From the NCBI GenBank assembly GCA_016183805.1, contig JACPDX010000013.1, forward strand, positions 62,001 to 126,000: a DNA stretch of 64,000 nt, given 5' to 3'. This document shows positions 34,873-45,921 of this stretch, piece by piece (within the stretch, counting starts at the first letter, position 1; each line of letters starts with the position of its first letter). The notes beneath the pieces are model-generated. The model searched no databases. It was not told the DNA's origin and saw only the letters and a program-made list of their open reading frames with translations. The position numbers and the translations under genes were made by a program. Source of the DNA: Bacteroidota bacterium (GTDB lineage Bacteria; Bacteroidota; Bacteroidia; Flavobacteriales_E; Vicingaceae).

Positions 34873-35280
34873 TTACTTTTTATGCCCCATAATATAACTT
34901 ACAATAACTTGTAAATCTTCAGCACTCATTTTTTTAGTAATTTCAACTTGAGGAGTCATCAATGCAGCTTGTGCCGGGTCAACTATTGCAGCAGATTCGC
35001 CTTTTAAAAATGCGGTCAAAGTAGCTTCATCTGCATAAGCAGCAGCAATATCAATAATTGACGGACCAACCAATTTTTTATCTACCTGATGACAAGCAAC
35101 ACAGCCACTCGTTTTGTAAAATTCGGCACCATCTTTTGCAGCAGGAACTTCAGCAGCAACTTCTTCTGTTGTAATTTCTGTTGCCGTTTCTTTTTGTTCT
35201 TCCGAACCACCACAAGAAGTTAATAATCCTGCTCCGAATAGCATTGATAAAGCCAGTACACTAATTTTTACTTTTTTCAT
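34873..35280 (-). CDS. Lipoprotein c-type cytochrome
   Basis: Lipobox LLTSC; CVACH heme motif; MTPQVEITKKMSAEDLQVIVSYI. Confidence 0.9.
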   Translation of the reverse strand: MKKVKISVLALSMLFGAGLLTSCGGSEEQKETATEITTEEVAAEVPAAKDGAEFYKTSGCVACHQVDKKLVGPSIIDIAAAYADEATLTAFLKGESAAIVDPAQAALMTPQVEITKKMSAEDLQVIVSYIMGHKK

Positions 35281-35336
35281 TGTTTTATGTCTTTTTTAGG
35301 ATTCAAAATAGGATGCAAAGTTGTATAAAATATTGA

Positions 35337-35417
35337 ACTTCTCACAATAAATGAGGTAAAAAAGTGGTCGCATCGGGAATCGAACCCGAATCTACAGTTT
35401 AGGAAACTACTATTCTA
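35337..35417 (-). repeat. 81-bp direct repeat, copy 1 (contains truncated tRNA-Arg 3' part, 35365-35417)
   Basis: Identical over 81 bp to 43892-43972; lacks the 5' acceptor strand and 5' D-arm of the tRNA. Confidence 0.93.
35365..35417 (-). pseudogene. tRNA-Arg(CCT) 3' fragment
   Basis: TAGAATAGTAGTTTCCTAAACTGTAGATTCGGGTTCGATTCCCGATGCGACCA. Confidence 0.9.
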
Positions 35418-35776
35418 ATGCCGCATTATAAACTAATAAAACATCAAAATCAAAAACTGGCACTTTTCCTGTAAGTTCTATGGTAACTTTAATTGAAAAT
35501 ATACGATAAATATTCGTTCTACAAAATAAAAATGATACTTTATGATACGATGTGGTACTAGAAAGTGTGAGCGACTAAATAATAGCAAAAAACAAAGTTT
35601 TTAAATAGTTGTTTTAGGATATTACTCACTCGGCAAAGCCGAGCGAGTGAAAAGAGTGACCTATTATATTTATTAATCTAAATAGTTAAAGAACTGTAAT
35701 TGATACTCTTTGTCCCAATCTTTTTGAGCAGAAGACGAGTTAATATCAGAATAATAAATAAATCCTTTATTGTCAA

Positions 35777-37735
35777 TTAACCCTTAATGATTTGTTTTAC
35801 AAAAATTTCATCCTCAACAATAAGCTGCAAATAATAAATACCCTTACCATAATTAGTAATGTCGATCTCAATTTTTTGTTTACCGATAGGTATTAATTTA
35901 TCCAATATTAACTTAGAGGTAACATCTAGCAACCTAACTCCAACTTCTTTATTAAAACCGTATGTCTTTTCAATTGTAAACAAACCAGTATTTGGATTAG
36001 GATATATCTTCACTAAAGAATTTAATTCTAAGTTATTCTCTAGTCCCGTAATAACTGGAGGAGCAATAACATTAATAGTAAATCCAGCTGCTTTATTGAA
36101 TACAACTCCATTTTCTCCAATAGAATCACAATACATATCTACACATCCAGCTCCATCATCAATTGTTAAACAAAGATAAAATGGTCCTGCTGTGGCATAA
36201 GTATGATTGGGGAATTGTAACGTTGAAGTATCTCCATCTCCAAAACTCCACAAATAAGTTAGATTTGTTCCGGTTGAACTATTAACAACAGTAATATTCC
36301 CAGTTGCAGCATCAGGATAAAAGACAAATCCAGCATTACATTGTAAGGGAATGGGAACTCCAGTCACATTAATTGTATCTAGATAATAATCAACACAAGA
36401 ACTCTCATATGTTGTATCATTAATAGTTAGTACAACAACAAAAGTTCCATCCGCACTAAAGGTGTGATTAGGACTTGTTATTGTGGATGTATTACCATCT
36501 CCAAAAGCCCAGTGTGATTGGTCATAACTTCCTACTGAAGTATTTGTAAATGAATAGTTTCCATTACCATTATCAATTCTCGTGAAGTTTGGAGATAGAT
36601 TGCAAGGCGGTCCAATTATATAATTTTCGTACCAAGTAGCTTGATTTCCAAAAGCTAAAATTTCTAAATCTGAATCTCCATCTAGATCAGATGCGCAAAC
36701 TTTAACCATAGTTGTGGAATTGCCATAAGTAACATTAATATCAATAAGTTTTTTGGCACTATATGTTGCTGACCCAAGATTTTCAATCCAGAATAACTCA
36801 GCTGTATATGCTGTCGGATAAACAATATCCAAATCTAAATCCCCATCTAAATCCCCAGCAAATAAGGAACTAATCCATTGACCACTACCATCCAATATTA
36901 AGTGATTATTAAAATTTCCATTACCGTCATTTTTGTGTAATATTAAACCAGCATTTTCATGTCCTGAAAGTATGTCTAAATCACCATCTTGATCAAAATC
37001 TTCTATCAATAAAGCTGAAGTTTTTGCATATGAAAAATAAGAATATATTATTTGTTCAGTGCTATAGCTGCCCCCTCCAAGGTTTTCAAACCAAACGCCA
37101 TCTTCAAGATTGGATCCAAAAACGATGTCCAAATCTCCATCATTGTCTAAATCAGCAGAAGAAACCTGTGCGAAAGCATTACCACCACAATTAAGTGATG
37201 AAGATAACAGATTAGGAGTGCTATAACTGCTTCCTCCCAGATTTTCAAACCATACTACTAAATCAAACCCATCAGATGCAGTTATAATATCATTATCGCC
37301 ATCTCCATCCATATCAAAAGCAGTAACAGCGACAGGGTCACTCTGGCTTAAAGAAATAATTTGCTTTGGTCCCATTGTCAAATTTCCTAAATTTTCAAAC
37401 CAAGCAATTTCATTCAAGCCCCTATTACATGCTAGCACATCTAAATCATTGTCATTGTCTAAGTCAATAAATTCGACTCTTATTCCAGGTATTCCTCCTC
37501 CATACCAAAGAACTACACTTTCAGGATTAAAGGTACCACCACCTATATTTTCTAATAATATTATATCATTATCATCCGCTCTTAAAATGTCATTATCACC
37601 ATCGTTATCATAATCGTATTCAACTACTTTAAAGGTAGCATAGCCCGAAGAAAAGATTGTGTTTCTTTGCCCAAATTGGGCACTAACAAAAACTGCACTT
37701 ATTAAAAGTGGTAATATGAGAAATAGTTTTTTCAT
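35777..37735 (-). CDS. FG-GAP/VCBS-like repeat, PKD domains, T9SS-sorted protein
   Basis: Repeated DxDxDGDxD(I/L) units; YLWSFGDGDTSTLQFPNHTY PKD; C-terminal sorting tail. Confidence 0.92.
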   Translation of the reverse strand: MKKLFLILPLLISAVFVSAQFGQRNTIFSSGYATFKVVEYDYDNDGDNDILRADDNDIILLENIGGGTFNPESVVLWYGGGIPGIRVEFIDLDNDNDLDVLACNRGLNEIAWFENLGNLTMGPKQIISLSQSDPVAVTAFDMDGDGDNDIITASDGFDLVVWFENLGGSSYSTPNLLSSSLNCGGNAFAQVSSADLDNDGDLDIVFGSNLEDGVWFENLGGGSYSTEQIIYSYFSYAKTSALLIEDFDQDGDLDILSGHENAGLILHKNDGNGNFNNHLILDGSGQWISSLFAGDLDGDLDLDIVYPTAYTAELFWIENLGSATYSAKKLIDINVTYGNSTTMVKVCASDLDGDSDLEILAFGNQATWYENYIIGPPCNLSPNFTRIDNGNGNYSFTNTSVGSYDQSHWAFGDGNTSTITSPNHTFSADGTFVVVLTINDTTYESSCVDYYLDTINVTGVPIPLQCNAGFVFYPDAATGNITVVNSSTGTNLTYLWSFGDGDTSTLQFPNHTYATAGPFYLCLTIDDGAGCVDMYCDSIGENGVVFNKAAGFTINVIAPPVITGLENNLELNSLVKIYPNPNTGLFTIEKTYGFNKEVGVRLLDVTSKLILDKLIPIGKQKIEIDITNYGKGIYYLQLIVEDEIFVKQIIKG

Positions 37736-37758
37736 GACATTTTAGTTAGAATTATTTT

Positions 37759-37766
37759 CAAAATTA
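37759..37766 (-). promoter_or_regulatory. Bacteroidota -7 box TAATTTTG (TAnnTTTG)
   Basis: Matches consensus; same spacing to the palindrome as at 42382. Confidence 0.6.
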
Positions 37767-37788
37767 GTCGATATAGTATTTTTATAAC

Positions 37789-37804
37789 TCATCCATTTGG
37801 ATGA
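37789..37804. promoter_or_regulatory. Candidate operator TCATCCATTTGGATGA, copy 1
   Basis: 7-bp inverted repeat with 2-nt spacer; part of a 46-bp module repeated at 42382-42427. Confidence 0.65.
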
Positions 37805-38066
37805 AATTTTTGTGTTTATACATTTTTTAGTTCAAAACATATGTTTGCCAACTAGCTGCTATGTACAATAGTGCACAAATTCATCTTATATTTTTATTAT
37901 TACTAAATCAATTTGTTAATGTGTTATCCATTTAATTACACATTAATTTTCCACTTATTAAATTATACCTTTAAAATTGAGAACAAACTTTTTATAAGTT
38001 TCACTATATAAAGGTAAGATTCAATTCAAAATACCAAATGGTATGTTTTTTAGGTTAAATTGCATG

Positions 38067-39497
38067 TTATTTATCAAATTCAATTTTATCTAAAAGCAGA
38101 CTCTCTCCAACACCATCTTCATTAAAATAAAAGTTATCATACCAATATATACTACTTTTAAATTGAAACTCAACGAGACCAGTTTCTCCTGATCTTGAAA
38201 TGTATGGGGTCTTTTTTCTATTTATTAATTGACCATTTTCAATTTCAAAATAGAAAATATTTTTTCCAAAGGAATAATGACATTCTATTTTATTAGCTTC
38301 TTTTTTTACTGTAACTGTTTTCGGGAAATTATTAACAATACAAGAACTAGTTTGTTCATGTTTTGGATGATCTTTCCAATCTAAAGTTATTACTTGATCC
38401 CATAGGATATCACCAGTATTATTTATACCAAAAATTAAGATGTAAGTTAATTCTTGGCCATTATAAACAGTCTCATATCTTTTATCCAATATATCATAGC
38501 TATCAGTAAATGCATCCTTATCAATAGTTCCTATTACAATCATCTCATTTTTATTTGACACGATATTTTCCAAACGAAATCTATATTTATCTATTTCATT
38601 TACCCTCTTATCTATTTCCATCTGGTTATTGAAATTTTTGAAATCCGAAAATTTATAATATTTTTCAATAGGATTTTTTGCATTCATATTTTTTAAATAG
38701 ATTCCTGTATATTTTGGTTTACTACTATGGTCTTCAGTATCTCTTATCTCATCATTTTTAGGAGCTTCTTTATAATTTCCAACAGTATAAATTACATCAT
38801 CAATATTAGAGAAACCTACAGTTGATTTAAAAATATTGTTTTCTAGCCTCGAAAAAGCAGTAAGTTCCTTACCAGTTGTATCATGTAATGCAACCTCATG
38901 TCCTTGCTTTTTATTTACTTCTTTTGTCCTAGAAACGGCCATCAACTCACTAGTTTTAAAAGAGGAGAATTCTGTAACTGAAACTTTTTCTCCTTCATTT
39001 AAATTCGTAGAATAATCAACCGTATTCTTTGTATTAAAATTTACTCGATTAAAATAGGTGTTACCTTTAGAAGCCCCATAATAATAGTTGTTATTTGAAA
39101 TATCAACATAAAAATAGGGCTTTTTAGCTCCAGCGAAATTCATAGATTTAAAGTTCTCATCCAAAGAAACTCTGGTAGTTACTTTTTCTTTTTTTATTTC
39201 TTCAATAATAAAAAGATATTTGTTGGACAAATAATAATCAGTACTGTAATCACCTTTTGACTGTCGAGCGATATTTTTTTCAGCAATTTGATTTAGCTGA
39301 GCATCGTATAATCTCAAGGTTATTACATCTTTAAAAGTAAAAATTGATAAAATTTCTTTATTATTTACGGGATATGATATTTTATAGTAGAAATAGTCTC
39401 TCCTTTTATCTTTGTAAGGATATTTTTTATTTACTGTTTGTGCAAACGAGGAAATTGTTAAGACACTTACGATTAAAGTAATGATGTATTTTTTCAT
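38067..39497 (-). CDS. Hypothetical secreted protein
   Basis: 476 aa; signal peptide MKKYIITLIVSVLTISSFAQ. Confidence 0.75.
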   Translation of the reverse strand: MKKYIITLIVSVLTISSFAQTVNKKYPYKDKRRDYFYYKISYPVNNKEILSIFTFKDVITLRLYDAQLNQIAEKNIARQSKGDYSTDYYLSNKYLFIIEEIKKEKVTTRVSLDENFKSMNFAGAKKPYFYVDISNNNYYYGASKGNTYFNRVNFNTKNTVDYSTNLNEGEKVSVTEFSSFKTSELMAVSRTKEVNKKQGHEVALHDTTGKELTAFSRLENNIFKSTVGFSNIDDVIYTVGNYKEAPKNDEIRDTEDHSSKPKYTGIYLKNMNAKNPIEKYYKFSDFKNFNNQMEIDKRVNEIDKYRFRLENIVSNKNEMIVIGTIDKDAFTDSYDILDKRYETVYNGQELTYILIFGINNTGDILWDQVITLDWKDHPKHEQTSSCIVNNFPKTVTVKKEANKIECHYSFGKNIFYFEIENGQLINRKKTPYISRSGETGLVEFQFKSSIYWYDNFYFNEDGVGESLLLDKIEFDK

Positions 39498-39508
39498 GCT
39501 TTATTTTT

Positions 39509-40129
39509 TTAAAAATTATATATATATGTAAAACCAAATTCTCCAATTTTAGTACTTGGTTCAATTCTACCATTGGAGTATAAGTTGTAGTATTTATACC
39601 TGAAAAGTGAGCCATATAGTCTGAGGCTTTTATTTTCATTAATATTGTAATCAAATGCCATCATCATTAAATGGGAGTTAAGAGCTGTGTACGTATATTG
39701 ATATCCTAACAAAATAGAAAAATCAAAACCAGTACTATAATTTCTGTAATAAATGTATTCAGGTAAATTAAAAAGAAAGGATGAAAGCCCTTCAGTATTT
39801 TTAATGTCTTTTTGATATCCAAAACCTACACTTAATTTAGCTCCAGTACTCCATTTTTCAGTTGAGTAGAAAGGTATGCTTGCTCCAAAATGAGTAACTA
39901 AATTTATCATTAATCCAGAGGTTTCAATATATTTGTAAACTGGTGCTGATGGAGTTGTATAATTACCTATTACAGTTTCATTACCATCACCTACATCTTG
40001 AGTACCCGCTATAAATATTGGTAAAAATCCGATGGAAACATCACTAAATAAATTAAAACTATCTTGCCCATTAATGTTATTAATAATAAATGCTTGAATC
40101 AGTATTGAAATCAGTATTATTTTTTTCAT
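39509..40129 (-). CDS. Hypothetical outer-membrane beta-barrel-like protein
   Basis: Signal peptide; alternating aromatic strands, C-terminal FGFTYIYNF. Confidence 0.6.
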   Translation of the reverse strand: MKKIILISILIQAFIINNINGQDSFNLFSDVSIGFLPIFIAGTQDVGDGNETVIGNYTTPSAPVYKYIETSGLMINLVTHFGASIPFYSTEKWSTGAKLSVGFGYQKDIKNTEGLSSFLFNLPEYIYYRNYSTGFDFSILLGYQYTYTALNSHLMMMAFDYNINENKSLRLYGSLFRYKYYNLYSNGRIEPSTKIGEFGFTYIYNF

Positions 40130-41088
40130 ATTCTTGCTTTTAATATTAATCCAGCACTACCACTGATGTAAAATGTGTTCGACGATATGAATCGTATTTT
40201 ATAAAAAGTGTTGGTAAATCCATCACCATTAATATCAAAAACTTCATTCCAAACATGTTCGCTTCCAATATCCATATTAGATACTATTGTTTTTTCTCCT
40301 ATACAAACCTTAAAACCGCCATATCCATCTACTGAGTAATATGAATATGTATGGCCAAAATAGTTTCTTGAATAATTTAAAACTTCATCCATTACTAAAC
40401 CATAATTGCCAACTCCAGTACCTTGACCGTTTGATAAATAAATATCGTTAGGAATTTCATAAGCATTTAATCCACCAAGTTCTACTGAAAAAGCAGTATT
40501 GTTTGATAAGTTAAAGCCATTCTCATTACCATGCTCATACCTATCATTAGATAAAATAACAACTTTATTATCTACAATTCGAGAAGTCCGAAAGTTAAAT
40601 CCGTTGTAATTCATCTTCCCTTTATAAATAAAAGTTTGACCATTATTTATTGTAGTTTTAATAGTGCAAGACATTGGACTACAGGTTCCAATTACTCCAA
40701 TTCCTTCATCTGTTTTTCCGATAAAAGTAGCAACATCTTTTATTGACCATGTTTGCCCTCCATCAGTTGTTACATAAACATCATTATTCATTAAACACAT
40801 TCCCTTAGTTTCACCAAAAAACTCAAGACCTTTACAGGTTTTACTGGTAGCTACTGTAATAGTAGTCCAGCTACTTCCTCCATCAGTAGTTTTGTATATA
40901 AAACCAGATTCGGAAGCAGCATAGCCGACAGATGGTGAAGGGAAAGAGAAGTATTTTATTTCAGAAGCTCCAATAATAGTCATATCCTTTTCAATTTCCA
41001 TAACTGGAATAATTTCAGTTATTTTTTTTTCACAGGAAGTCGATAATAAATAGACCGTTATTAGGCTAAGTTTAAATAACTTATTCAT
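40126..41088 (-). CDS. Ycf48/BNR-like lipoprotein
   Basis: LSTSCEKK lipobox; SVGYAASESGFIYKTTDGGSSWTTI repeats; start corrected to MNKLFKL. Confidence 0.75.
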   Translation of the reverse strand: MNKLFKLSLITVYLLSTSCEKKITEIIPVMEIEKDMTIIGASEIKYFSFPSPSVGYAASESGFIYKTTDGGSSWTTITVATSKTCKGLEFFGETKGMCLMNNDVYVTTDGGQTWSIKDVATFIGKTDEGIGVIGTCSPMSCTIKTTINNGQTFIYKGKMNYNGFNFRTSRIVDNKVVILSNDRYEHGNENGFNLSNNTAFSVELGGLNAYEIPNDIYLSNGQGTGVGNYGLVMDEVLNYSRNYFGHTYSYYSVDGYGGFKVCIGEKTIVSNMDIGSEHVWNEVFDINGDGFTNTFYKIRFISSNTFYISGSAGLILKARI

Positions 41089-41095
41089 TTCAATT

Positions 41096-42343
41096 TTATT
41101 GATAAATAATCTTAGTGTCGTACATTTCTCCATCAATATTTATTTTTACAGAATAAATACCTTTGGGATAAGAACTTAAATTTATGGAATAGTGATTTAG
41201 TAAGTTGTCTTCTTTAAGTATTTTTCTTCCCATCATATCATAAATCTCTATTGAGGCAGTTTTACCTTTAAAATCCACATTAAAATTTCCATTTCCAGGA
41301 TTGGGATAAATTAACAATTTGTTATCGTTGGCAAAATCATCTATTCCTATTGGAGTATCCATTTTACCAAACATACCATATATGCCTCCTACAATTCCAA
41401 AATTTATGTTCGGTATTGAAATAGAATATGCTGCCGACATTGGAGATAAAGTCCCATCTATAGTCCATGTGCTTCCTCCATTAGTAGTTTTAATTACCTT
41501 CCCTAATAAGGTAGATGCATATCCAACAGTAGAATTGGCAAAACTAAATTCAGTAATTTGATCTGTTCCCGTAGGATTAGTTACTTGTGTCCAAGTAGTT
41601 CCTGCATTAGTTGTTCTTAAAAGTATTCCATTATTTATACAAGAAATTACTCCGTTGTTAGCATCAGAAAAATTAATATCTCTAAAGTAATTGCTAGCAA
41701 TCCCTGAACTTAATGTATCCCATGTGCTACCTCCATCTAAAGTTTTATAAATCCTTCCTATTCCTCCTCCTGTGTCATCTCCTCCTACAACATATCCAGT
41801 AGTAGCACTTGTAAAATATATACTCTTTAATCTCTGAAAATATGCAGGCATTGTTAATGGAGTCCAATTAGCTCCCCCATCGATAGTTTTTAATACCCAC
41901 ATTTCATAAAAACCACCTGCTATATATCCGATATTTTGGTCAACAAAATAAACTGATTCAAAAGCTTCCTTGTGTGATGTATTAGGATTGATATAATATT
42001 GAGTGCTCCAAGTATTTCCTCCGTTGGTTGTTTTAGCTATTAATCCACCATCACCAACAGCAAAACCTAAATTTGCATTAATAAAGGTTATATCTCTAAC
42101 CCCAGATTTAACTGTTGCTACATTTGTCCATGTTGTTCCACCATTCGTTGTTTTTTTTATTTTACTGCTATCTCCAGCCGTAGGTGCTATTCCACCAATA
42201 AACCCAACATTCTTATCTAAAAAATGTACGGCATCTAATAGGTAATATCCACCTGCTAATGAAGTGTTTACGGTCCACTGAGCAAATACTGAAGAATTTA
42301 CTATAATAAAAAGCAATAATGGCAAAAAGTACTTTGTTTTCAT
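41096..42343 (-). CDS. Ycf48-like repeat, T9SS-sorted protein
   Basis: Repeated NxGFAVGDGGLIAKTTNGGNTW units; C-terminal sorting tail; start corrected to MKTKYFLPLLLF. Confidence 0.88.
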   Translation of the reverse strand: MKTKYFLPLLLFIIVNSSVFAQWTVNTSLAGGYYLLDAVHFLDKNVGFIGGIAPTAGDSSKIKKTTNGGTTWTNVATVKSGVRDITFINANLGFAVGDGGLIAKTTNGGNTWSTQYYINPNTSHKEAFESVYFVDQNIGYIAGGFYEMWVLKTIDGGANWTPLTMPAYFQRLKSIYFTSATTGYVVGGDDTGGGIGRIYKTLDGGSTWDTLSSGIASNYFRDINFSDANNGVISCINNGILLRTTNAGTTWTQVTNPTGTDQITEFSFANSTVGYASTLLGKVIKTTNGGSTWTIDGTLSPMSAAYSISIPNINFGIVGGIYGMFGKMDTPIGIDDFANDNKLLIYPNPGNGNFNVDFKGKTASIEIYDMMGRKILKEDNLLNHYSINLSSYPKGIYSVKINIDGEMYDTKIIYQ

Positions 42344-42381
42344 AATCTTAAAGTTTAAGTTGTTTGTATTATTGATTTCTA

Positions 42382-42427
42382 CAAAACTAGTTGATACAGT
42401 ACTTATATGACTCATCCATTTGGACGA
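42382..42427 (-). promoter_or_regulatory. Promoter/operator module copy 2: TAGTTTTG box and TCATCCATTTGGACGA
   Basis: 39/46 identity with 37759-37804, same spacing. Confidence 0.65.
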
Positions 42428-43818
42428 TTTTCTATGTCATTGGCTTTTTTTACTGCTTGTGTTCGATTACTAACATCCAGTTTTTCGTAAATCTTATTAA
42501 GATGAGTTCTTATTGTATTAACAGAGACAAACAATGTTTCTCCAATTTCTTTATTCGTTTTTCCTTTCGATAATTCTTCTAGTACTTCTAATTCACGCTC
42601 GGATAAAGGATTATTCAAATTAGCATTTAAGTTTTCTTTAATTGTATCCATTACACTCGTTTGTTCCTTTTTGTAGTTTAGTAATTCAATTTTTTTGATG
42701 TATACATCTAATTGATGCCTAATTTCATTTTCTTGAATATTTTTTTTGAATTTGTAATTTCTAAACCATAAATAAGAAGAAATAATTAAAAGAATAATAA
42801 AACCGATTAAACCAAATAATGTATAATTTTTTAGTTTCTTATCTTTTTCCAAAACTTCAATATTTTTTTTCTGTAAGGCTATTTCTTGCTCTTTTTTTTC
42901 CAGTTGGTATTTTTTCTCCAACTCAGCAATTTTTTCAACTTTCGTTTTATCTAGTAATTCATTATCTAAATTACTATAAATAGAGAGAATTTCATACGCT
43001 TTTTTATAGTCCCCAAATCTAAAATTGCCTACTTCTAAATAAGCAGCTCCTAAATTATTTAATACTATAGCTTCTCCTTTCTTGTCCCCAATATTTGTAA
43101 ATGAATTTAAAGCTTCATTAAAAGACTGTATAATTAATTCAAAGTTTTCTTCATAATCCAAAGCATTAGCAAAGCTTAGAGAGCTAACTGCTATCAGTCG
43201 ACTATCACCTAATATTTTGGATTGTTCTAGTCCTTTTTTATGATAATTAAGAGATTGTTCTGAATCACCCATTATCCCATACAAAATGCCTAATGAATTA
43301 TAACAATTTATTACTCCATATAAATTGTTAATTTCCGTATATAAATTCATCGCCTTGTTTAAATACTCTATAGATAATTTGTTATCTTCCAGAAATTTAT
43401 AGGTATTCCCAATATTGTGGAACAAGTTTGCAATATTTTCCTTATCCCCATTTTGTTCGATTATTTTCAATGCTTTTAGATAATATTCTATTGTTTTAGA
43501 ATAATTTCCATTTTGTTCTTCATATAATGCTAATATATTATAAGAAGCAGCTACACCTCTATCGTAATTTAGCTTTTCAGATAATTTTAAAGTTTCAGCA
43601 GCAATCTTTTTAGAATCTTCGGGATTTGATCTTAAAAGGTTTAATCCCAAATCTTTTAATAAAGTTATTTTGTTTGTATCTTCTTCTGCTTTCTCTAATT
43701 CTTTTAATAATCTGATAACGGTAGTATCTTTTGAAGCAATTTGATATTTTTCTTTAGCTAGTAAGATTATAGTTAATAAGGAAAATAAAAAACAGAAAAT
43801 TATTTTTTTAGATATCAT
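42412..43818 (-). CDS. TPR sensor-like protein with TM and C-terminal LuxR-type HTH
   Basis: TPR repeats; FGLIGFIILLIISSYLWF TM; LSERELEVLEELSKGKTNKEIGETLFVSVNTIRTHLNKIYEKLDVSNRTQAVKKA. Confidence 0.93.
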   Translation of the reverse strand: MISKKIIFCFLFSLLTIILLAKEKYQIASKDTTVIRLLKELEKAEEDTNKITLLKDLGLNLLRSNPEDSKKIAAETLKLSEKLNYDRGVAASYNILALYEEQNGNYSKTIEYYLKALKIIEQNGDKENIANLFHNIGNTYKFLEDNKLSIEYLNKAMNLYTEINNLYGVINCYNSLGILYGIMGDSEQSLNYHKKGLEQSKILGDSRLIAVSSLSFANALDYEENFELIIQSFNEALNSFTNIGDKKGEAIVLNNLGAAYLEVGNFRFGDYKKAYEILSIYSNLDNELLDKTKVEKIAELEKKYQLEKKEQEIALQKKNIEVLEKDKKLKNYTLFGLIGFIILLIISSYLWFRNYKFKKNIQENEIRHQLDVYIKKIELLNYKKEQTSVMDTIKENLNANLNNPLSERELEVLEELSKGKTNKEIGETLFVSVNTIRTHLNKIYEKLDVSNRTQAVKKANDIENRPNG

Positions 43819-43891
43819 TTTTTAGGGTTTTATTAAATTGATTTAGAATTGGCAGGATTGAGATAGGGTGCAAAATTGTGTAAAATAAAAT

Positions 43892-43972
43892 ACTTCTCAC
43901 AATAAATGAGGTAAAAAAGTGGTCGCATCGGGAATCGAACCCGAATCTACAGTTTAGGAAACTACTATTCTA
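43892..43972 (-). repeat. 81-bp direct repeat, copy 2 (within and 3' of intact tRNA-Arg)
   Basis: Identical to 35337-35417. Confidence 0.93.
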
Positions 43973-43991
43973 TCCGTTGAACTATGCAACC
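43920..43991 (-). tRNA. tRNA-Arg(CCT)
   Basis: GGTTGCATAGTTCAACGGATAGAATAGTAGTTTCCTAAACTGTAGATTCGGGTTCGATTCCCGATGCGACCA; loop TTCCTAA. Confidence 0.93.
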
Positions 43992-44080
43992 AGAAATTTT
44001 TCTCAAAAATAATATAATCTAAACGAAAAAACCTTTTATTATCTCCTAGATTGTTATTCCTTCCTATCTTTGCAAACGTA

Positions 44081-44494
44081 ATGTCGAAATTCACTTTAAA
44101 CATAGAAGAAGATTATGATTTTAGCTTGATAGGAATTAGTTGTCATGCTAAAGATTTTAAACTTTGTTTTGAGTTTAACAGATTGTTGGAAATTAATTTT
44201 ATTCGGAAAGAAGATTTAGACATTGACTCCAAAAAAATGAAAGGAAACTTTGCTCTTTATGAATTTATTGACGAAGATAATTTTTTGGATTATTACCTGA
44301 TTTCGAATAGAAGTAATACAGGAGTTTTAATTCCGGAGCATAAAACCATCGATTATTTTTTGTTGTTAAAGGGAGCTACCAACGACGATATTATTGATGA
44401 TATTTTACAAAAAATAAGCGTCTTACAAATTGTGTTAACAGCCTATAAAATAGATGTTGATACGTTAAAATCGAAACAAAATTTAATATTCTAA
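44081..44494 (+). CDS. IPExxxVDY family protein
   Basis: LIPEHKTIDYFLLLKG motif; start at MSKFTLNIEEDYDF. Confidence 0.85.
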   Translation: MSKFTLNIEEDYDFSLIGISCHAKDFKLCFEFNRLLEINFIRKEDLDIDSKKMKGNFALYEFIDEDNFLDYYLISNRSNTGVLIPEHKTIDYFLLLKGATNDDIIDDILQKISVLQIVLTAYKIDVDTLKSKQNLIF

Positions 44495-45921
44495 TGTTTA
44501 CAAAAAAAACAAAAATAGTTGCAACACTGGGGCCGGCAACATCAACAAAAGAAGTGATTACCCAAATTATTGAAGCAGGAGTGAATGTTTGCCGAGTAAA
44601 TTTTTCGCACGGAAGCTACAATGACCACGAAAAAACGATTAACATTATTCGTGAAATTAGCATCGAAAAAAAGTTGAATGTGGCTATTCTTGCCGACCTT
44701 CAAGGACCAAAAATTAGAGTTGGTGAGATTGAAAATAATGGTATTTTATTAGAAAATGGTAAAGACATTATTTTTACTTCAACTAAATGTATTGGCAACC
44801 TAACCAAAGTTTACATCAGCTATCAAAATTTTCCTAAAGATGTTTCTCCGGGAGAAACTATATTGCTTGACGATGGAAAATTAAATTTGGTAATTAAATC
44901 CACCAACAAAAAAGATGAAGTGGTTGCAACTGTTGTTCATGGCGGTAAGTTATCATCAAACAAAGGAGTAAATCTTCCTAATACTAAAATATCATTGCCT
45001 TGTTTAACTCCAAAAGATATTGAGGATTTGAATTTTGCCTTAAAAATGGATGTGCCATGGATTGGGCTTTCGTTTGTGCGAACTGCAAGAGATATCATTG
45101 AATTAAAACATTTAATTACTGAAGCAAAAAGTGATGCTCGAGTAGTTGCTAAAATTGAAAAGCCTGAGGCTATAAAAGAAATTGATGATATTTTAAAAGT
45201 AACTGATGCAATAATGGTAGCCAGAGGCGATTTAGGGGTTGAAATTCCTTTTCAGCAAGTACCACTTATCCAAAAAATGTTGGTTAAAAAAAGCATGAAA
45301 GCCGGTAAACCGGTAATTATTGCTACTCAAATGATGGAAAGTATGATTGAAAACATTACACCTACCAGAGCTGAAGTAACCGATGTTGCCAATGCTGTTT
45401 TAGATGGAGCTGATGCGGTTATGCTTAGTGCTGAAACTTCTGTTGGAAAACACCCCGTTAAAGTGATTGAAAACATGGTTAAAATTATTAACGATGTAGA
45501 ATCTCACGAAAGTGTTTACAACTATGAATTTGCCCCTGAGGAAGACAATCACGACCGGTACATTACCGATTCCATTTGTTTTAATGCTTGTCGTTTGGCT
45601 CAACGGGTAAATGCACAGGCAATTGTTACCATGACTTTTTCGGGCTATACAGCATTCAAAATTTCTAGTTTTAGGCCAAAAGCCTGGATTTTTGTTTTTA
45701 CCGGAAACAAATCTATTCTAAACATGCTAAGTTTAGTGTGGGGTGTAAAAGCTTTTTATTACGATAAATATGTGAGTACCGACCATACCATTGCCGATAT
45801 TAAGTACATTCTTAAAAAAGAAGGTTTTGTAAAAACCAAAGACTTGATTATTAATATTGCTAGTGTGCCGATTTCCGAAAAAGGTCAAGCAAACATGATG
45901 AAATTGAGCTATATTGAGTAG
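44494..45921 (+). CDS. pyk: Pyruvate kinase
   Basis: KIVATLGPATSTKEVI; MVARGDLGVEIPFQQVPLIQK; VIIATQMMESMI. Confidence 0.97.
   Translation: MFTKKTKIVATLGPATSTKEVITQIIEAGVNVCRVNFSHGSYNDHEKTINIIREISIEKKLNVAILADLQGPKIRVGEIENNGILLENGKDIIFTSTKCIGNLTKVYISYQNFPKDVSPGETILLDDGKLNLVIKSTNKKDEVVATVVHGGKLSSNKGVNLPNTKISLPCLTPKDIEDLNFALKMDVPWIGLSFVRTARDIIELKHLITEAKSDARVVAKIEKPEAIKEIDDILKVTDAIMVARGDLGVEIPFQQVPLIQKMLVKKSMKAGKPVIIATQMMESMIENITPTRAEVTDVANAVLDGADAVMLSAETSVGKHPVKVIENMVKIINDVESHESVYNYEFAPEEDNHDRYITDSICFNACRLAQRVNAQAIVTMTFSGYTAFKISSFRPKAWIFVFTGNKSILNMLSLVWGVKAFYYDKYVSTDHTIADIKYILKKEGFVKTKDLIINIASVPISEKGQANMMKLSYIE

Follow-up and report, generated by a model that had tools for sequence, protein, structure and literature searches.

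How an 8.5-kb segment came to lie between the gene for tRNA-Arg(CCT) and a cytochrome c gene, with the intact tRNA gene at one end and a detached 3' part of it at the other, is the question raised by this locus. The stretch of DNA analysed (the window, 64,000 nucleotides) belongs to a 243-kb contig (C15) of a draft Bacteroidota genome (G000) of 3.47 Mb in 109 contigs. An initial annotation, made from the sequence alone, had proposed either a degraded or non-autonomous island or a duplication.

The two ends of the segment share 81 identical base pairs (35337-35417 and 43892-43972, minus strand), the longest exact direct repeat of the window; the longest exact repeats in 20 shuffled windows measured 15-19 bp. 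The initial annotation had reported this identity correctly, together with 53 bp of tRNA within it, a figure that our recount changes to 54 nt (nt 20-73 of tRNA-Arg(CCT)); the remaining 27 bp are 3' flank. ARAGORN gives a single tRNA-Arg(CCT) gene, at 43919-43991 on the minus strand, in agreement with the earlier observation that the right end holds the intact gene and the left end only a 3' fragment (35364-35417). No second Arg(CCT) gene turned up among the tRNAs of this genome; the target is single-copy. Its acceptor stem diverges strongly in an alignment of G000 with three members of the same genus (G001, G002 and G003), both sides of the stem having changed in step.

The fragment lies downstream of the tRNA gene in the same orientation, 8.5 kb away, and the tRNA share of the repeat starts at nt 20, immediately before the anticodon stem, where anticodon-centred att sites would lead one to expect it. 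In appearance, the two copies do resemble att sites. The likeness continues imperfectly beyond the 81 bp: with a repeat finder it reaches 110 nt at 94% (35308-35417 and 43863-43972). The further 29 nt are about 76% alike in the two copies, and a gapped alignment detects weaker likeness to about 55 nt past the identical part. At the left end these 29 nt (35308-35336, minus strand) are the native continuation of the flank toward cytochrome c, judged by the repeat comparison and by alignment with G001; at the right end (43863-43891, minus strand) they resemble that native flank.

Comparison with the three genus mates, with one genome taken per species, indicates which end is original. The native left neighbour is the cytochrome c gene (34873-35280, minus strand; Pfam Cytochrom_C), and on the right stand a small gene of about 147 aa and a pyruvate kinase gene (44051-45921, plus strand), whose order beside the tRNA matches that in all three genus mates. 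G001 runs from GroES and GroEL through cytochrome c and tRNA-Arg(CCT) to the small gene and pyruvate kinase; less than 100 bp of uninterrupted DNA separates its tRNA from cytochrome c, and neither fragment nor insert is present. The G001 flank aligns with the left repeat copy up to the cytochrome c start codon; the native flank therefore belongs to the left copy, and the insert comprises 35418-43891. The uninterrupted junction that the initial annotation suggested looking for in related genomes thus exists in one of the three genus mates, the other two being rearranged (in G002, cytochrome c sits across pyruvate kinase from the tRNA) or split between contigs (G003). In G003, the 3' side of the tRNA holds unrelated acetyltransferase-like, nuclease-like and transposase-like frames up to the end of its contig (C47), and this side of tRNA-Arg(CCT) accordingly looks variable in the genus. 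None of 21 tRNA-Arg(CCT) loci examined in the family (the three genus mates included) has a tRNA 3' fragment downstream, in stretches of up to 20 kb that were often shorter owing to contig ends, which argues that the fragment goes with the insertion. Neither integrases nor any other element were found at tRNA-Arg(CCT) in the family loci examined.

These comparisons bear on two of the ways in which such a structure might arise without any integration. An assembly artefact, with the 8.5-kb segment of another replicon or strain joined in through the 81-bp repeat, is conceivable in a draft of 109 contigs when the bounding repeat is about the size of a short-read word, but we consider it very improbable, as both repeat copies have unique and differing flanks, the segment lies well within its 243-kb contig, and the outer flanks agree with the gene order of G001. 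We give still less credence to an ancient duplication of the tRNA 3' part, fixed in the lineage, with ordinary core genes in between. That the repeat spans flank as well as tRNA would suit such a duplication, but G001 has neither fragment nor insert, two of the cargo genes (encoding proteins of 476 and 206 aa, described below) have no homologue in any of the three genus mates, and an unselected tRNA fragment would not long stay identical over 54 nt. The absence of these two genes from all three genus mates argues against a segment fixed long ago in the genus, and the empty site of G001 contradicts the scenario, raised at the outset, in which all relatives carry the same genes along with the fragment.

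The insert is foreign-looking, and its cargo is patchily distributed. Its GC content is 29.7%, compared with 34-36% in the flanks, and the GC3 of its six genes is 0.19-0.21 (flanking genes, 0.18-0.36, mostly 0.22-0.31). The six ORFs occupy 35777-43818. Among 46 genomes of the family, the 476-aa protein has one homologue, at 32% identity; for the 206-aa protein the family yielded no homologue, and 395 genomes of the class gave one marginal match. The insert DNA did not match plasmid or phage records, and no useful match to the cargo came from phages, plasmids, viral contigs or GTDB genome contigs. Of the two readings first proposed, then, the island is favoured by the empty site and by cargo that the genus mates lack, whereas a plain duplication fits less well than a degraded or non-autonomous island because the interior is not copied from neighbouring DNA.

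All six genes are on the minus strand. Starting from the tRNA side, the first encodes a TPR-LuxR (GerE) transcriptional regulator of 468 aa (42412-43818; Pfam TPR_12, 4.9e-27, and GerE, 6.1e-19), followed by a secreted BNR/YCF48-like protein of 439 aa with a type IX sorting tail (41096-42415; PSII_BNR, 5.8e-18, and Por_Secre_tail, 2.8e-14) and by a shorter BNR-like protein of 336 aa that lacks the sorting tail according to the ORF list and Pfam (40126-41136). The two orphans come next, at 39509-40129 (206 aa, no family) and 38067-39497 (476 aa), and both have starts that, by our reading, look like signal peptides. The last gene encodes a 652-aa FG-GAP/PKD protein, again with a type IX sorting tail (35777-37735; FG-GAP_3, 4.1e-40, PKD_4, and Por_Secre_tail, 6.1e-10).

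Homologues of the luxR gene and of the 439-aa BNR gene occur near each other in two other genera. In G006, of the same family, a 269-aa gene comes after the luxR homologue, then two small genes and, last, a BNR homologue (55% identical); in G342, of another family, the luxR and BNR homologues stand side by side and divergent. There is no tRNA near either locus. This conserved proximity (adjacent or within four genes) suggests that the regulator and the type IX-secreted BNR protein form a functional pair. At the left end of the insert, directly against the FG-GAP stop codon, we found a remnant of the 3' end of the 269-aa gene that follows luxR in G006 (35667-35780, minus strand; 85% identity over 114 bp). 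With this remnant at its left end, the insert appears to derive, with rearrangement, from a gene neighbourhood present elsewhere in the family.

A 46-bp element precedes both genes for proteins with a sorting tail. It consists of the inverted repeat TCATCCAAATGGATGA, a spacer of 22 nt and a TAnnTTTG box. One copy, with promoter-like TAATTTTG, lies before the FG-GAP gene (37759-37804, minus strand) and is 85% like a second copy at the luxR end, before the BNR gene (42382-42427, minus strand), which the repeat finder and a genome pattern search both located and in which one base of TCATCCAAATGGATGA is altered. The whole pattern is confined to exactly two places in the genome, each of them inside the insert, and G006 has matching geometry with a different inverted repeat. 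Our guess is that the island's LuxR protein might bind the TCATCCAAATGGATGA element. The luxR and secreted-protein genes, being kept together in other families, would be a candidate regulatory unit that can be tested.

If the segment is an island, a recombinase might be expected in it. The initial annotation saw no integrase there, and our searches bear this out: none of the six ORFs has a recombinase match in Pfam, NCBIfam or PHROGs, and a genome-wide search for PF00589 gave no match on the insert's contig. The insert likewise contains no excisionase, relaxase or phage gene; its PHROGs matches are confined to generic regulators and a TPR-like family, and no phage DNA match was obtained. The stretch 35418-35530, where a frame stays open into the tRNA fragment, is a possible second remnant, but it lacks homologues as well as Pfam and NCBIfam matches, and we do not assign it to an integrase. 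A comparison of the two inner ends for common arm-type repeats returned only A+T-rich words, which are unconvincing.

Elsewhere in the genome, integrase-family genes are found on contigs C54 and C86 (which we take to be xerD and xerC, respectively), C66 and C106. The C106 frame, a tyrosine recombinase at positions 1-544, is truncated by the contig end. The C66 gene encodes a 408-aa tyrosine integrase with Pfam integrase, SAM-like and arm-binding domains, and it adjoins a 3' fragment of tRNA-Glu(TTC) in an element of about 31.6 kb (C66, 4182-35813; locus 4164-35884) that also has DNA methylase and ParB-like frames. Our survey of tRNA fragments, which covered the tRNA neighbourhoods and the integrase contigs of this genome, turned up only this element and no integrase-less fragments at the other tRNAs. 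The tRNA-Glu element resembles the insert in having a tRNA 3' fragment together with a copied 3' flank, here containing a hairpin (124 bp at 94%, 31 bp identical); it differs in its size, in the integrase beside the fragment, and in repeating only the last 19 nt of its tRNA.

Taken together, the data make it likely that the segment is a horizontally acquired island, integrated site-specifically in tRNA-Arg(CCT), from which the integrase is now gone, the element being either CIME-like or decayed. The 81-bp repeat, the rebuilt tRNA with its displaced fragment, the empty site in G001, the foreign composition and the rearranged interior all support a tRNA island. A point against this reading is that the intact junction is confined to one of the three genus mates. 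As for the mechanism, we propose that a circle with its own copy of the tRNA 3' part and flank recombined with the chromosomal tRNA gene close to the anticodon loop; that copy would have rebuilt the tRNA at the right end, and the 3' part native to the host would have been displaced to the left, beside cytochrome c. A tyrosine integrase presumably carried out the insertion, and its gene either was lost later or acted in trans. Since the 81 bp are identical, and G000 and G001 are only 80% identical over the repeat region, the carried copy would have come from a very close relative, or have been evened out with one.

Two observations count against the involvement of an integrase: the insert has none of the mobility genes sought, and the copied flank is longer than is required to restore the tRNA end and, past 27 bp, no longer agrees with that of the host. 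A homologous insertion would also give such a flank, long and divergent beyond 27 bp. Our main rival explanation is thus a Campbell-type insertion, in which DNA of a close relative, at least transiently circular and carrying the tRNA-Arg 3' part with the cytochrome c upstream region, entered by a RecA-dependent crossover over 81-150 bp, an integrase never having been involved. It would leave an identical scar. The 27 identical and some 29-55 similar nucleotides of non-tRNA flank, homologous to the cytochrome c flank of G001, fit it well, as does an insert free of integrase, phage or plasmid genes. We nevertheless regard it as possible but rather unlikely. The 5' boundary in the tRNA falls where integrases of the anticodon class need it, and homologous crossover is not efficient over as little as about 100 bp. 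Moreover, the copied flank does not call for homologous recombination, because the tRNA-Glu element of this genome, which does have an integrase, carries one too.

The carried flank past the 27 bp, judging by its sequence, may keep the TTTTG-containing, promoter-like part of the cytochrome c upstream region, which now stands before luxR. One could imagine a minimal integrase-free cassette of a regulator and type IX-secreted proteins that moves among the tRNA-Arg(CCT) genes of close relatives with an integrase in trans and expresses its first gene from the copy that it carries of the host's cytochrome c promoter region. We think this elaboration improbable.

The preferred reading, an integrated island that has parted from its integrase, can be set against known systems. 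The Islander rules place a 3' fragment on the downstream side of its tRNA, oriented alike and 2-200 kb apart, and 2083 of 3919 islands have anticodon-centred att sites (PMC4383910). The insert is like this class in its intact tRNA and same-orientation 3' fragment, 8.5 kb apart, with the fragment starting just before the anticodon stem; unlike it, the insert has no integrase, failing the Islander integrase filter, and its repeat extends beyond the tRNA by 27 bp (about 55 if imperfect likeness is counted). Islands in tRNA genes may, on this reading, lose all signs of mobility but the tRNA scar, and tools that require an integrase, such as Islander, would miss this one. A cis-mobilizable element (CIME) retains its att ends and is missing its integration and transfer genes (PMC5704250). 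The insert, with two att-like ends and neither set of genes, would fit that description, although no related ICE or IME is known at its site, and its former integration and transfer genes are assumed. Within the same phylum, a 10-kb island of Riemerella anatipestifer occupies an Arg-tRNA and has an att repeat of 53 bp (PMC6764341), which by our reading runs past the tRNA end into the 3' flank. The two are alike in phylum, Arg-tRNA target, small size and long perfect repeat, but in R. anatipestifer the tyrosine integrase works and the island excises (PMC6764341). The insert would be a further case of surface and secretion genes entering a Bacteroidota chromosome, with their own regulator, by way of a tRNA gene. 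It is a small integrase-less tRNA island of CIME-like anatomy, and as such an ordinary kind of genomic island.
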